Shown here piece by piece: positions 25,157 through 31,111 of a stretch of DNA of 47,797 nt. The position numbers and the translations under genes were made by a program. A model generated the notes under the pieces. It did no database searches. It was not told the DNA's origin and saw only the letters and a list, made by a program, of their open reading frames with translations. The stretch is from Pleurocapsa sp. CCALA 161. Lineage in GTDB: Bacteria > Cyanobacteriota > Cyanobacteriia > Cyanobacteriales > Xenococcaceae. The stretch spans positions 1 through 47,797 of the forward strand of contig NZ_PVWF01000034.1 of assembly GCF_003003995.1 (NCBI RefSeq), written 5' to 3'. Every line of letters starts with the position of its first letter. Within the stretch, counting starts at the first letter, position 1.

Positions 25157-25618
25157 CTAACTCAAATTACTAATATTGGGCAGAGTATTTACTGGTTCAT
25201 CAACTGTTTCATTAGGAGCTTGAACTTCGCTTGCGGGGACTGTCTCTAAATCTCCTGTTAAGGCTTCGCTGTCGTTAATGGGTATAGGTTCAAACGATAC
25301 CTTGGCTTCTAGCCAAGCAGCTAATAAATTAGGTAGATTGCGCTTGAGCCAAAATAAGGCAGCCAGACGCGCAACTGGTTTGATATAGCCTACCAATATC
25401 TTCATCATTTTATTTAGTGGTGGGTTATGCAGCTTTTTGTTGGCATAGTTGATTGAACCCACATCGATCAAACTATCAATAATCAGTTTTAAAGCTACTT
25501 CTTCTCGTTCGACAATCTGCTGCAACAACAAGGTAACATCACGCATCCGCTCTTGCTTTTTTAATTCTTCAGCAGAAATTGGCTTGGCGTTGAGAGGTTC
25601 TTCTGAATATGTCAGCAT
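25157..25618 (-). CDS. Conserved-looking protein of unknown function
   Basis: This 153-residue protein reads as mostly helical in residues 20-100 (MRDVTLLLQQIVEREEVALK, then PVARLAALFWLKRNLPNLL), followed by an acidic, Pro/Glu/Thr-rich tail. The middle part has amphipathic, weakly hydrophobic segments but no clear membrane helix. I do not recognise a family. It is only 53 bp downstream of the NRPS gene on the same strand, so it may be cotranscribed with it, but it has no visible biosynthetic motif. Confidence 0.6.
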   Translation of the reverse strand: MLTYSEEPLNAKPISAEELKKQERMRDVTLLLQQIVEREEVALKLIIDSLIDVGSINYANKKLHNPPLNKMMKILVGYIKPVARLAALFWLKRNLPNLLAAWLEAKVSFEPIPINDSEALTGDLETVPASEVQAPNETVDEPVNTLPNISNLS

Positions 25619-25671: not shown

Positions 25672-28600
25672 CTAATTCTGTTTCAATTTGACTTGTCTCA
25701 TTTTAGCTAGCTCATCGCACCGAGGTTTAGCGGTAAAATTTGCCAGAATGGCTTTGAGTTTTCTTCCAAGTATCTGGGCATTTTCTGGCTTAAGTAATAG
25801 GCTAGTATGCATACCAGGAACTTCATAAACATCAATTCCGCCCAATGCCAGTCCTTGCCAACCTCCATCGGGATCAAAATAACCGCAAGCCTGTCTAGCT
25901 TGAGCGCGAAAAAGAGTTAATTTTCCCTCATAAACAGTAGGTGTATATTGTTCTTTTGCCTGCAAGTTAATATTTTGAATTTGGGCGATCAGCCTTTGTT
26001 CTGGAGAACTCATTAAATTGGCTAACCTAGAATATCTCTGTTGCCAAGCACAAGGTATTTTAGATTGTAAAATATATTCAAATCGGTCTGTCAAATAAGC
26101 TAATTTTTCCCTTAATGATAATGCGCTTAAATTATTTAGGTGAATCCCTAACCGTTGTACCAATGTAGATTGATCGTAGCCATTAGGTCCAAAACAGTCA
26201 AATAATGCTAGAACAGCGACTGTTTCTCCTTGTTGGACAAGTTGTTGTGCCATTTCAAAAGCTACAAAACCACCAAAAGAGTGTCCTGCTAAAAAATAAG
26301 GTCCTTGGGGTTGAATTAGTTTGATTTCTTCAAGATAGCTAGCAGCCATCTCTTTAATTGAAGTTAGTGGTGTTTGTTGACCATCCAAACCTTTTGCCTG
26401 TAGCCCATAAATAGGTCTATCCGATCCTAACGCTTCGGCTAACCATTGGTAACCCAATACATTCCCACCAACGGCATGGATCAAAAATAAAGGAGGCTGA
26501 TGACCATGGGGTTGAATACTCACCAGAGAAGACCAATAAGCAGAGCATCCTTGCTCTAGCATCAAGCTAGCCAATTGGGCAATGGTCGGTGCTTGAAAAA
26601 GCGTCGCTAAGGGTAAATTTTTACCAAAAGTGGTTTGAATTTGCTCAAACAAGCGTAACGCTAATAAGGAATTACCTCCCAACTCAAAAAAGTTATCATT
26701 TCTACCAATCGGTTTAGCATTTAAAATCCGCGACCAAATCTGGCTTAACTGCCATTCTAAGGTATCTTGAGGCGGGAGAAAATCATTTTCTGTTTCTAGC
26801 TGATTTAATGGTAGTTCAAGTAGTGCTGGACGGTTGATTTTGCCATTGGGAGTTAAAGGCATAGAGTCTAAAAAAACAAACGCCGCAGGAATTGCGTATT
26901 CAGGTAATCTAGTTTTAAGAAAGTCCCGTAGTTGTTTGCTAGTTATCGATTTTAGTTTTGAAACACAATAGGCAACTATAGTTGTCTGTTCGGAGTTATC
27001 AGAAGCAGTATCCTTGAGGACGGGTCGATTAGCGATCGCCACAATAGTTTCTGTTATTCCTGGATATTGTGATAGGGTAGCTTCAATTTCGCCTAGTTCG
27101 ACTCTAACACCGCGAATTTTTACTTGATTATCAATACGCCCCAAAAATTCGATATTACCATCTTCAAGATAACGTCCTAAATCTCCAGTTTTGTAGAGAC
27201 GAGCTGTTGCTGAATCACTAAAAGGATCAAGAATAAATTTACTGGCGGTTAATTGCTCCCGATGCAGATAACCTCTGGCTACACCAACTCCACCAATATA
27301 AAGTTCTCCCGTCGCTCCAATTGGTACTAACTGTAATTTTGGATCGAGGATATAAAAAGATTGGTTATTAAGCGGACGACCGTAAGGAATCGTTTTAGTC
27401 GAGGGAGCTAAGTTCTCAATGGGATAATAAATTGACCAAATTGATGCTTCTGTTGCCCCTCCTAAACTAATAATTTGTAGTTGTGGGTTAAGGGTTTGTA
27501 GCTGCATGACCAGGTGTGGACTAATGCGATCGCCACTCAGTAAAACTAAGCGCAGAGATTTAGGCAATGTCCGCTGATTAGTCATGATCTGGTCGAGCAG
27601 CAGTTCCATCAAAGCTGGAGCTGAATTCCAAATAGTAACTTTTTCTTGGATGATTAATTCTAGCCAGTGTTCTGGGTTGGGGCAATTTTCGGGCTGAGGA
27701 ATAATCACCCTACCACCCGATCCCAATAATCCAAAAATATCGTATACCGACAGATCGAAGCTTAAGGAAGATACTGCTAAAACGCTATCTTGAGAGCTAA
27801 TTTTAAAACGTTGTTCAAGATCAAATAAGGTATTAACCACGCTGTGATGTTCAATTTCGACTCCTTTGGGATTTCCCGTCGACCCAGAAGTGTAGATCGA
27901 ATAAGCTAAATTATGGCTATTGACATTGCTAACAGGCTGGTAATTGACCGCCACGATCTCCTGCCAGTCTTGATCTAAACAAACAACCTGCGCTGAGGTT
28001 TCGGGTAAGCGATCAAGTAATTTACTTTGAGTTAAGAGAATCCCTACTCCACCATCTTCTAATAAATAGGTCAGTCTCGCCGTCGGATAATTCGGGTCTA
28101 AAGGTAAATAAGCGCCACCTGCTTTAAGAATAGCAAATAAACCGATAATCATTTCTACGGAACGATTGAGGCAGATTCCAACTAAGGTTTCGGCTTGAAC
28201 TCCCAAACTTTGCAGATAACCAGCCAATTGATTGGCTTTTTGCTCTAATTCTCCATAGGTTAAGTATTGCCCTTGGCAAACTATAGCCAGGGCTTGAGGA
28301 TGTTCGGCTGCTTTTGCTTCAAATAGTTGATGAAGACAGCATTGAGGATAGTTACTTTTAGTATCGTTCCACTCCCCAAAAATTTTTTGATGCTCAAAGG
28401 TAGATATTAAAGGCAGTTGAGAGACGGGGCATTGGGAGTGACGAGCAATTGCTGTTAACAAGATCGTCCATTGCTCGATCATCGTCTCAATAATTTGTGC
28501 TGAAAATAGCTGAGTGTTGTAAGACCAAAAGTATTCTGCTTGTTGTCGGTCAATAATTAAAGTGAAATCGGCAACGAGCAAATTTTCTGGGGGTAAGGCA

Positions 28601-30042
28601 TCTCGACTTAGTTGAGTTACAGCGACTGAAAAGTTAGTTTGTCGAGCAACCAGTTCGGGACATCGAACCATAATATCGGTTGAATAGGTTTGATGTTGTT
28701 GGTTACGCCTCAGTTTGTTAGTTACTGTTTTTAAGACATTAGTAAAATCCTGTTCGAGTTCAATGTTTAAATTGCAGGGTACATATCGAGCGAACCAAGG
28801 AGCATGAAGATCGCTAGTGAGCCGATCAAATCCCAAACTGATGAGATTGTTGCCACTTAAACGAGCTAAATAAATCGCGAAGGCAGCAATGCTAACTGCC
28901 AAAGAGTCTTGTAGGAAATTAGTAACTGTTGAGCTTAGAGGTAATTTAACTTGGCGATAATTATTATATTTATTCTGTGCCGAAGCTGTGGGTATTTGCT
29001 CACAAGGTAAAGTTAACTGTCGGCACTTTGATAATTGTTTTACCCAATAGGTTTGTGATGGTGCAATTTCGCTTTCAAATTTAACTAATTGAGCTATCGA
29101 TTGAGCGCCTATTTCTGGTAGCTTTTGTCCTACCTCTAATTGATAATTGGCAACTAATTCAGTGATTGATTTGGTTTGTTTTTGTTGACTGACAATAATT
29201 TCCAGGGCAATATCTTGGCTACCTGTAGCGACAATTAACCTTTGTTTTTCAATTCCCACTATTATTCCAGGCAATTGTGAAGATAAAACAGTTAACACTG
29301 TAACTTTTGTCACAATTACATAGTCCAGACTTGAATTGGAGTTTAAAATTAGTTTCGCTGTAGCCAGCGGATTGGGATAATCACCAAAATCTAAACCTCT
29401 AACTAAATTATCAATTTCTGTAGCTGAAGCATTAAAATCAATTATGCCCAATGCTGGAGGTTTTTGGTGTCGCGAAAAATAACTACGCTGTTGTAAATCT
29501 TGAGACTTAAAAGTTGTTTTTTTAGTTACTAATTCCTCAATCAATTCTTGAAAAGAAACAATTGCTGCCTGATAACATTTGGCATTGAGAGTTAAGGCAG
29601 TTTCTGAAGGCTCAAGCTCTATTTCTACCTGCTTTAATATTTGCCCAGTATCCACCTCTAGCTCCATTTCATGCCAGGTAATTCCATGTTGCTTTTCACC
29701 GTTGATAATCGCCCAGGAAGTGGCATTTACTCCAGCATAAGCTGGTAAAAGTGCATCGTGATAATTAATTGCTGTCTTGGCTAAATTAAGAATTTCTTGA
29801 TTTAAAATAGTTTGATTGATAATACTAAATAGATAATCGTATTGAGTTGGAGAAGATATTTGTTGAAATTGCCGAAGATTTTTACAATAAATAATCTTAC
29901 GGTTTGCTGTCCATCGGGCGATCGCTTGATCGGCAGATATGACTGTACTGACTTGATAATTATTTCTAATTAGTATTTCAGCACACTCAATTAATAAATT
30001 TCCTTCTCCAATTAGGACACAATTAAAGGAAAACTTCTTCAT
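25672..30042 (-). CDS. Single-module NRPS: formyltransferase / half condensation / adenylation (Cys-type) / carrier / thioesterase
   Basis: A 1456-residue megasynthase. Residues 1-200 are a formyltransferase: Asn93-x-His95 with LLP (INYHDALLPAYAG) and Asp131 (VDTGQIL) match the catalytic Asn, His and Asp of methionyl-tRNA formyltransferases; residues about 200-310 fit their C-terminal domain. Residues about 330-550 are only the C-terminal lobe of a condensation domain (TYWVKQLS onwards); no HHxxxDG is present. Adenylation domain at about 570-1070: YSIYTSGSTGNPKGVEI, and pocket residues Asp763, Leu764, Tyr767, Asn806, Leu834, Ser836, Leu860, Ile868, Trp869, Lys1068, giving DLYNLSLIWK, the published cysteine code. 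Carrier Ser1125 is in FFELGGNSLLALR; thioesterase Ser1255 is in GHSFGG, Asp1282 in ALFDC, and His lies in PGMHTSL. The product is unknown; a formylated or cyclised Cys derivative is inference. Confidence 0.9.
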   Translation of the reverse strand: MKKFSFNCVLIGEGNLLIECAEILIRNNYQVSTVISADQAIARWTANRKIIYCKNLRQFQQISSPTQYDYLFSIINQTILNQEILNLAKTAINYHDALLPAYAGVNATSWAIINGEKQHGITWHEMELEVDTGQILKQVEIELEPSETALTLNAKCYQAAIVSFQELIEELVTKKTTFKSQDLQQRSYFSRHQKPPALGIIDFNASATEIDNLVRGLDFGDYPNPLATAKLILNSNSSLDYVIVTKVTVLTVLSSQLPGIIVGIEKQRLIVATGSQDIALEIIVSQQKQTKSITELVANYQLEVGQKLPEIGAQSIAQLVKFESEIAPSQTYWVKQLSKCRQLTLPCEQIPTASAQNKYNNYRQVKLPLSSTVTNFLQDSLAVSIAAFAIYLARLSGNNLISLGFDRLTSDLHAPWFARYVPCNLNIELEQDFTNVLKTVTNKLRRNQQHQTYSTDIMVRCPELVARQTNFSVAVTQLSRDALPPENLLVADFTLIIDRQQAEYFWSYNTQLFSAQIIETMIEQWTILLTAIARHSQCPVSQLPLISTFEHQKIFGEWNDTKSNYPQCCLHQLFEAKAAEHPQALAIVCQGQYLTYGELEQKANQLAGYLQSLGVQAETLVGICLNRSVEMIIGLFAILKAGGAYLPLDPNYPTARLTYLLEDGGVGILLTQSKLLDRLPETSAQVVCLDQDWQEIVAVNYQPVSNVNSHNLAYSIYTSGSTGNPKGVEIEHHSVVNTLFDLEQRFKISSQDSVLAVSSLSFDLSVYDIFGLLGSGGRVIIPQPENCPNPEHWLELIIQEKVTIWNSAPALMELLLDQIMTNQRTLPKSLRLVLLSGDRISPHLVMQLQTLNPQLQIISLGGATEASIWSIYYPIENLAPSTKTIPYGRPLNNQSFYILDPKLQLVPIGATGELYIGGVGVARGYLHREQLTASKFILDPFSDSATARLYKTGDLGRYLEDGNIEFLGRIDNQVKIRGVRVELGEIEATLSQYPGITETIVAIANRPVLKDTASDNSEQTTIVAYCVSKLKSITSKQLRDFLKTRLPEYAIPAAFVFLDSMPLTPNGKINRPALLELPLNQLETENDFLPPQDTLEWQLSQIWSRILNAKPIGRNDNFFELGGNSLLALRLFEQIQTTFGKNLPLATLFQAPTIAQLASLMLEQGCSAYWSSLVSIQPHGHQPPLFLIHAVGGNVLGYQWLAEALGSDRPIYGLQAKGLDGQQTPLTSIKEMAASYLEEIKLIQPQGPYFLAGHSFGGFVAFEMAQQLVQQGETVAVLALFDCFGPNGYDQSTLVQRLGIHLNNLSALSLREKLAYLTDRFEYILQSKIPCAWQQRYSRLANLMSSPEQRLIAQIQNINLQAKEQYTPTVYEGKLTLFRAQARQACGYFDPDGGWQGLALGGIDVYEVPGMHTSLLLKPENAQILGRKLKAILANFTAKPRCDELAKMRQVKLKQN

Positions 30043-30423: not shown

Positions 30424-30969
30424 TCAGATCAGATATTGACTGCTACCTTCTACAAAGTTAACGAAATTTTCCCGCAGCTTGAACAAAATTTTGCCGTTGA
30501 CATAGACTTCTTGCGTTGGGTAATTTTCTAAAAGTTCAATTAAAGAGATTAAATTATTATCGCTAGCTGAGGTGACTAATGCTCCCCGCAAAGCCGTTAC
30601 ATTTGCTATTTCAGTTCTAGAACTGACTACATTTCCTGTCTGAGATAAAATGTATTCTCCTGGTATTGTATTCAGTAAGTCTGAGATCAGCCTATTGTTG
30701 GCAGGAAATTCTTGTCTTAAAATGCGCCGTATTACAAATGGGTTTTGTTGACCATGTTTCAATAAAGTATTTAATGCTGGAGAAACTTTGCCTGTGTCGG
30801 CAAAATCTTGCAACTCTTCTAGAGAAATTGATTGGCTTAATCCACCGTCGGTAAAAATAACTTTTTCTGAACCTGAAGCTCGACTAGGAACAAAAAAAAT
30901 TAACGCTCCTGCACTAATAAAAGCGATCGCAACTTGTCTTAACCATTTTAATCCTGTAGCTTTTCTCAT
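30424..30969 (-). CDS. Stand-alone DUF1400 domain protein, exported
   Basis: From ATG 30969 the protein has 181 residues. That start is chosen because GGAG lies seven bases before it; an upstream ATG at 31014 lacks this. Residues 1-31 form a signal sequence (VAIAFISAGALIFFVPSRAS). The mature part has the DUF1400 pattern (alpha/beta hydrolase N-terminal domain): EKVIFTDGGLSQSISLEEL, then LQDFADTGKVSPAL, IPGEYILSQTGNVV, TALRGALVTSA and LLENYPTQEVYVNG. In most cyanobacterial proteins this domain precedes an esterase-like hydrolase; here the hydrolase is absent and the gene ends naturally with a stop. It lies 381 bp upstream of the NRPS gene on the same strand. Confidence 0.75.
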   Translation of the reverse strand: MRKATGLKWLRQVAIAFISAGALIFFVPSRASGSEKVIFTDGGLSQSISLEELQDFADTGKVSPALNTLLKHGQQNPFVIRRILRQEFPANNRLISDLLNTIPGEYILSQTGNVVSSRTEIANVTALRGALVTSASDNNLISLIELLENYPTQEVYVNGKILFKLRENFVNFVEGSSQYLI

Positions 30970-31111
30970 TTGTTTTCTCCTGCAATCAAGCATCATTCTT
31001 ATTTTATGTGGCAAAAATTCAGATTATGCTGCTGCTGACTAAATTAAAACAAAGTTGATTTTTTGTTCAACTAAATGATAAAATAGTATTAGTTAAATTG
31101 CAAGTTTACTG

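Follow-up and report, generated by a model that had tools for sequence, protein, structure and literature searches.

The analysis of a 47,797-nucleotide stretch of Pleurocapsa sp. CCALA 161 (contig NZ_PVWF01000034.1; hereafter the window) demonstrated that the gene P0001 encodes a nonribosomal peptide synthetase (NRPS) of a single module, in which a formyltransferase (FT), the C-terminal lobe of a condensation domain (C) without its N-terminal lobe (hereafter C'), an adenylation domain (A), a peptidyl carrier domain (PCP) and a thioesterase (TE) follow one another. Based on these results, it is fairly probable that P0001 is a stand-alone enzyme which loads cysteine, formylates its amine on the PCP and releases the product through the TE, with C' serving as a non-catalytic adaptor. 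The features of the gene are listed below.

25672..30042, minus strand: whole gene P0001, FT-C'-A-PCP-TE, 1456 amino acids (open reading frame and Pfam)
29458..30030, minus strand: formyltransferase catalytic domain, residues 5-195 (Formyl_trans_N at 78-158, covering only profile positions 90-171 of 181; ArnA-like over positions 16-302 of A2, an FT-C' profile of 59 rows)
29764..29766, minus strand: codon of N93 of the formyltransferase trio (ArnA alignment)
29758..29760, minus strand: codon of H95 of the trio (ArnA alignment)
29650..29652, minus strand: codon of D131 of the trio (ArnA alignment)
29143..29457, minus strand: formyltransferase C-terminal domain, residues 196-300 (Formyl_trans_C at 198-298)
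28363..29070, minus strand: C', condensation C-lobe without the N-lobe, residues 325-560 (Condensation at 295-554, covering only profile positions 153-455 of 456; solved C domains align from residue 193-200)
26803..28350, minus strand: adenylation domain, residues 565-1080, with the predicted cysteine pocket DLYNLSLIWK (AMP-binding at 574-926; pocket code)
26548..26775, minus strand: peptidyl carrier domain, residues 1090-1165 (PP-binding at 1098-1159)
26668..26670, minus strand: codon of the carrier Ser1125 (LGGNSLLA motif)
25792..26493, minus strand: thioesterase domain, residues 1184-1417, with Ser1255 and His1412 (Pfam Thioesterase at 1184-1417; motifs)

The open reading frame (ORF) runs from 30042 to 25672 on the minus strand, and the plus strand of the same interval is full of stops; a preliminary description of this DNA had placed the gene correctly without stating its strand. 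The residues named there (N93, H95, D131 and Ser1125) and the complete thioesterase were all found in P0001. A motif scan located the carrier serine within LGGNSLLA, and the TE showed Ser1255 in GHSFGG and a later histidine, His1412, in GMH, which together with the Pfam match are the features of a type I thioesterase. HHxxxDG was absent from the whole protein in a regular expression search, and C' matched the C-lobe part alone of the two-lobe condensation profile (PF00668), as had been proposed. The proposal of a single module with its own release was likewise borne out, since the protein ends in a TE and, in a search of its own genome with the P0001 protein, the contig carried no NRPS match other than P0001 itself.

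The FT half was compared with solved structures by means of A2. Positions 16-302 matched ArnA and methionyl-tRNA formyltransferases (best E value, 9e-37), and the profile from about position 321-324 onward matched condensation C-lobes, meeting solved C domains at the boundary between their lobes (Txo1, 193-455; SrfA-C, 200-455; McyB, residue 200); the condensation match of LgrA began slightly earlier (profile position 284, residue 916). Since the matches split at this boundary, the N-terminal part is a complete two-domain formyltransferase followed by a C-lobe. N93 and H95 align with 'NLHG' of ArnA and D131 with its 'DAG', giving the N-x-H and D trio of N10-formyl-tetrahydrofolate formyltransferases, which we take to be the catalytic residues. 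ArnA and the methionyl-tRNA formyltransferases share this two-domain build but, unlike P0001, are not fused to carrier-bound chemistry.

The A-domain pocket, read at residues 763, 764, 767, 806, 834, 836, 860, 868, 869 and 1068, is DLYNLSLIWK, and all ten residues equal a published cysteine signature; passages of PMC12283262 place both DLYNLSLIWK and DLYNMSLIWK among cysteine-activating signatures. The A domain of P0001 is thus predicted to activate cysteine, as the preliminary description had suggested. Syntenic orthologues were found in genomes G249 (92% identity) and G135 (80%), while the copies in G046 and G207 (59% and 57%) lie elsewhere in those genomes. The own genome holds a paralogue of 61% identity cut by the start of contig C197. 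The cysteine-coded full-length form occurred in 5 of the 13 same-genus genomes of the order sample, the own genome included, and the nearest named record among the best 80 of 327 relatives was Hyellaceae cyanobacterium CSU_1_1 (91% over FT-C'). The ratio of nonsynonymous to synonymous substitution rates (dN/dS) against the G249 and G135 copies was 0.30 and 0.18 for the whole gene, 0.34 and 0.28 for C', 0.37 and 0.22 for the FT core and 0.21 and 0.13 for A. Every domain of P0001 stayed below 0.4 in both comparisons and is under purifying selection.

Nineteen FT-C' rows were used to scan genome contigs, and from the 327 relatives detected the 80 loci with the best FT-C' scores were retained; because they were scored against FT-C', these loci favour C'-bearing rows. 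Together with P0001 and 18 cyanobacterial rows they make 99 rows, seven of which are second copies (92 distinct genes). C' stood behind FT in every one of these 99 rows, with a linker of 23-78 amino acids (median, 26). All 80 loci had the two formyltransferase domains and C' in this order (FTN-FTC-C'); in a few of them a contig end truncates C'. P0001 itself has the two-domain FT, the short linker and a lobe on the C' branch described below. The trio was intact in 95 of the 99 rows and altered in four. The 80 loci span 13 named phyla, with five loci lacking a phylum, and a closed one-module FT-C'-A-PCP-TE arrangement, the same domain order that the preliminary description had proposed to look for, was present in 19 of them, three of which have an extra insert; these 19 represent five named phyla plus one record without assignment. 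That description had also held that the FT domains of LgrA and of NRPSs of the anabaenopeptilide synthetase (ApdA) type head multimodular lines and normally feed a full condensation domain. FT-C' recurs and is not peculiar to P0001; it is also present in a decayed cyanobacterial cluster resembling that of ApdA.

Matches to FT-C' were found at E ≤ 1e-60 in 12 of 386 phylum-sample genomes and in 40 of 291 order-sample genomes, a few of the latter being partial or FT-less. A search with a profile of FT alone, run at E ≤ 1e-26, a threshold that excludes ordinary formyltransferases (which appear from about 4e-25) and would miss an LgrA-like FT, produced 43 hits, spread over 40 of the 291 genomes; 39 of these hits continued into C'. 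Two others had a reduced C' (G124 and G138), and one with an internal stop had none (G107:C78); the remaining hit, G164:C339, was left out of this reading. PLSDB contained 70 plasmid records that match FT-C', and in 67 of these the match covers 80% or more of its length.

In a tree of C-lobes, 90 C' sequences were separated from 24 canonical lobes by one branch with a support of 100 in the Shimodaira-Hasegawa-like approximate likelihood-ratio test (SH-aLRT), and from 30 others with a support of 99 when lobes of the own genome were added; this tree and the FT tree are quick builds with long branches and SH-aLRT support in place of a bootstrap. A TYxRDxxxRYP-like motif was seen in 62 of 97 C' and in 0 of 33 canonical C domains. 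Across 77 rows, the pairwise distances of C' correlated at r = 0.78 with the FT distances and at r = 0.79 with the A distances, in both cases more closely than FT correlated with A (r = 0.69). Four loci (L164-L167) encode C'-A-PCP proteins without FT. L164, from the same genus as the window, carries the code DFWNIGMVHK, and its lobe scored 242 bits with the C' model versus 35 with that of canonical C; the C' of L165, L166 and L167 aligns closely with that of the FT-bearing L024 and L027, in which the trio is altered (NHE and NQE). L168 has lost the FT core and kept FTC-C', with a stop within the matched stretch. Conversely, four loci (L103, L105, L177 and L178) have FT-C' ORFs without A, and a C-A-PCP gene lies 115 bases downstream of L103. 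Since C' persists beside A without FT and beside FT without A, it would be neither a catalytic partner nor debris, and the economical reading is that C' is a conserved adaptor linking FT to the A-PCP pair and not a catalyst. The earlier suggestion that FT replaces the donor lobe therefore holds for position, the cut falling at the lobe boundary with FT at the place of the N-lobe, and as a functional substitution it is unsupported because C' persists in relatives without FT. Two FT-less ORFs of the own genome with the order C-lobe-A-PCP-TE (C197 from 16657, and C136:395-3598, a match which spans stops) grouped with canonical lobes, which points to a separate truncation ahead of a first A domain.

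Based on these observations, we infer the following steps. The A domain would form Cys-AMP from L-cysteine and then Cys-S-PCP, and FT would formylate the alpha-amine of the carrier-bound cysteine, presumably from N10-formyl-tetrahydrofolate. The TE would then free N-formyl-cysteine, by hydrolysis as the default or by transfer to some acceptor. Throughout, C' would keep the place of a C-lobe beside A and couple FT to the A-PCP pair.

Several points weigh against this interpretation. C' is the least conserved domain, with a median pairwise identity of 23% versus 39-41% for FT, A and PCP, and some of the FT-C' ORFs without A may be broken genes. Most rows were gathered by FT-C' similarity, which biases the sample toward that combination. 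Cysteine specificity is predicted from the pocket code, and the cysteine form was observed in a single genus: among the 87 rows with a readable code, DLYNLSLIWK or DLYNMSLIWK occurred in seven (six genes), all from the genus of Pleurocapsa sp. CCALA 161. Besides, the genes surrounding P0001 give no clue to any use for N-formyl-cysteine. Other N-terminal FT modules carry DAWQFGLIDK, DAFWLGGTFK and DLFNNALTYK, presumably codes for glutamine, valine and alanine, respectively. They also carry DILQMGMIWK, which is close to the glycine code DILQLGMIWK given in passages of PMC12283262.

An unlikely but serious rival keeps loading and formylation as above but has the TE, in place of hydrolysis, couple several units together or donate the N-formyl-aminoacyl group to an acceptor such as an amine on a surface sugar. 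Transfer is taken seriously because nonulosonate glycan loci harbour five acidobacterial one-module relatives (L066, L079, L088, L089 and L093), each placed directly after genes of the NeuB/NeuC/NeuA and Wzz/Wzc types. Glycosyltransferase and Gfo/Idh genes also lie close to L120 (Nitrospirota), in Ruegeria a monooxygenase-type FT-C' gene adjoins a glycosyltransferase and a sugar transferase, and amino-sugar formyltransferases are among the closest FT relatives of solved structure. However, the NeuB/NeuC/NeuA run was present in only 5 of the 80 loci, all mutually related Acidobacteriota, and tblastn found no NeuB/NeuC/NeuA- or Wzz/Wzc-type genes in the window or the flanks of the same-genus relatives. 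L088 runs off its contig, and a second ORF with an FT-like start follows L066 at once.

It is quite improbable that C' is a functionless remnant of a former condensation domain. Its divergence, the reduced forms in L175 and L176, and the two unrelated FT-less genes of the own genome, whose initial C-lobe stems from ordinary C domains, would fit such decay, but C' has a dN/dS of 0.28-0.34 and a family motif that canonical C domains lack, is present in every row, is retained after FT loss and travels with FT without A. L175 (G124) and L176 (G138) encode proteins of 984-989 amino acids in which FT has shrunk to roughly its first 135 positions and is followed by the reduced C' and A-PCP. That FT is inactive or acts on another group, so that plain cysteine or another amino acid is released, is very doubtful: relatives with an altered trio or without FT exist, but the trio is intact in P0001 and its same-genus relatives, and the FT is under constraint as judged from dN/dS. 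Closure of the formylated cysteine to a thiazoline or thiazolidine, which the preliminary description had raised, is highly improbable and unsupported because P0001 contains no heterocyclisation (Cy), complete C or oxidase domain and none was found among the scanned neighbours, even though N-formyl-cysteine has the needed atoms and the cysteine codes in passages of PMC12283262 include modules with oxidised, ring-forming cysteine.

The window holds 53 ORFs of at least 70 amino acids, of which the Pfam scan covered 30. The scanned neighbours are housekeeping-like (RsfS, TruB, asparaginase II, DUF1400, MscS, FTR1, histidine kinase, FtsH, phosphoribulokinase and the like), and the idea of a biosynthetic gene cluster around P0001 was rejected on this ground. 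P0001 is flanked upstream by the DUF1400 gene (30424-31014, minus strand) and downstream by an ORF of 153 amino acids without a Pfam match (25157-25618, minus strand), and the synteny of both is kept in G249 and G135. The only resemblance between the window and the flanks of the copies in G046, G207 and C197/C83 lay in repeat- or kinase-like ORFs that matched weakly. Rfam, tRNA and PADLOC scans of the window gave no match. Two phosphopantetheinyl transferase-like ORFs are present in the own genome, which with P0001 has genes for both loading and carrier activation.

Among known systems, the initiation module of LgrA (F-A-PCP) likewise has an N-terminal formyltransferase (F) within a module of A and PCP, as passages of PMC5053139 describe. 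It is built differently from FT-C', since its F matches the P0001 FT over only about 30-165, with the second FT domain unmatched, and its A follows from residue 206 without a C', whereas about 240 amino acids of C' separate FT from A in P0001; moreover, LgrA is part of a multimodular protein and P0001 is one module ending in a TE. According to passages of PMC3252866 and PMC2533009, ApdA carries a formyl transferase in its initiation module and is, like P0001, a cyanobacterial FT loading module, but it heads a multimodular depsipeptide line, while P0001 has a single module and another substrate code. Genome G235 contains a decayed apd-like cluster with FT-C'-A(DVQFIAHVVK)-PCP followed by A domains coded DAWQFGLIDK and DFWNIGMVHK; because this cluster has FT-C', ApdA itself probably has a C' between FT and A. 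This cluster, made up of the loci L060 and L161, resembles those for cyanopeptolin and anabaenopeptilide, opens with FT-C' and contains several broken ORFs.

NRPSs of the MupA/Atu3671 monooxygenase type (TIGR04020 in A) include L139 and L086, which likewise have FT-C'-A-PCP and differ from P0001 in a glycine-like pocket, an inserted monooxygenase and the lack of a detected TE. Aminobacter and Ruegeria plasmid records with FT-C' are annotated as this type. An insert of 370-420 amino acids in A and a glycine-like code were seen in L139, L086, L082, L090, L097, L111, L112, L122, L136 and L141; the insert is a Bac_luciferase domain in L139 and L086, the two tested, and L139 is of the TIGR04020 MupA/Atu3671 type. 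EntF-type enzymes (C-A-PCP-TE) share the A-PCP-TE order, and the EntF model match of P0001 was partial (422.8 bits against a cut-off of 2400). Unlike P0001, EntF has a complete condensation domain.

Passages of a 2022 review (PMC8949500) call formylation domains very scarce, place them always in the initiation module and count three known products, and passages of PMC12858407 (2025) add loading modules for sponge-symbiont peptides; parts of PMC2739229, PMC1894796, PMC10212144, PMC11546977 and PMC8402340 were also drawn on. A search of the open PubMed Central (PMC) literature, a scope outside which subscription papers and the original ApdA paper fall, found no description of an FT domain followed by half a condensation domain.

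FT was also found inside elongation modules. A full C domain with HHxxxD[GA] directly preceded FT in 18 rows (12 distinct genes), giving C-FT-C'-A-PCP, and in L117 a PCP did so. Glutamate at pocket position 239 (DAEDIGTVVK type) was present in 19 of 19 internal-FT rows versus 5 of 68 N-terminal rows; the Fisher P value of this association is not valid evidence alone because the rows are related and include six duplicates, and on the FT tree the traits gave five changes and three independent pairs, with a sign test that was not significant. The lysine paragraph of PMC12283262 contains DGEDHGTVVK, which is 90% identical to the ornithine signature DGEDHGTVTK, and no match to the DAEDIGTV code was found in the open PMC literature. 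At six cyanobacterial loci the internal-FT modules follow an A-PCP unit without the usual pocket aspartate. This starter was acyl-CoA-ligase-like in the one case tested, which fits acylation of the alpha-amine. If C uses the alpha-amine, the side chain could be the target of FT, and the pocket codes suggest that internal FT may formylate the side chain of a lysine- or ornithine-like residue.

It is possible, if still tentative, that FT-C' is a mobile formylation cassette whose half condensation domain has turned into a dedicated adaptor, used in starters, one-module suppliers, free-standing proteins and elongation modules, where it would formylate such side chains behind an intact C domain. 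A lysine/ornithine hydroxylase (PF13434) as a partner, in the style of formyl-hydroxyornithine, was rejected: in the 11 genomes searched, hits shared a contig with FT in just two, G084 (at a distance of about 245 kb) and G235 (a single large contig, megabases apart). The loci L049, L050, L051, L057, L058 and L059 share an A-PCP starter, fused in L049, then C-FT-C'-A(DAEDIGTVVK type)-PCP and further C-A-PCP(-TE) modules. An ORF resembling methylisocitrate lyase or phosphoenolpyruvate mutase adjoins the cluster in L049, L057 and L059, the L057 copy lying below the NCBIfam cut-offs.

In build, FT-C' differs from the formylation domains described in PMC8949500 and PMC12858407 by a half condensation domain of its own, and it appears to be much commoner; it occurs in 13 named phyla. 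The natural variants in which one or the other neighbour of C' is missing provide ready material on the role of a C-lobe without its partner lobe, and FT-C' offers parts for installing N-formyl groups in engineered synthetases. A small formyl-capped thiol, if that is the product of P0001, would be easily sought.

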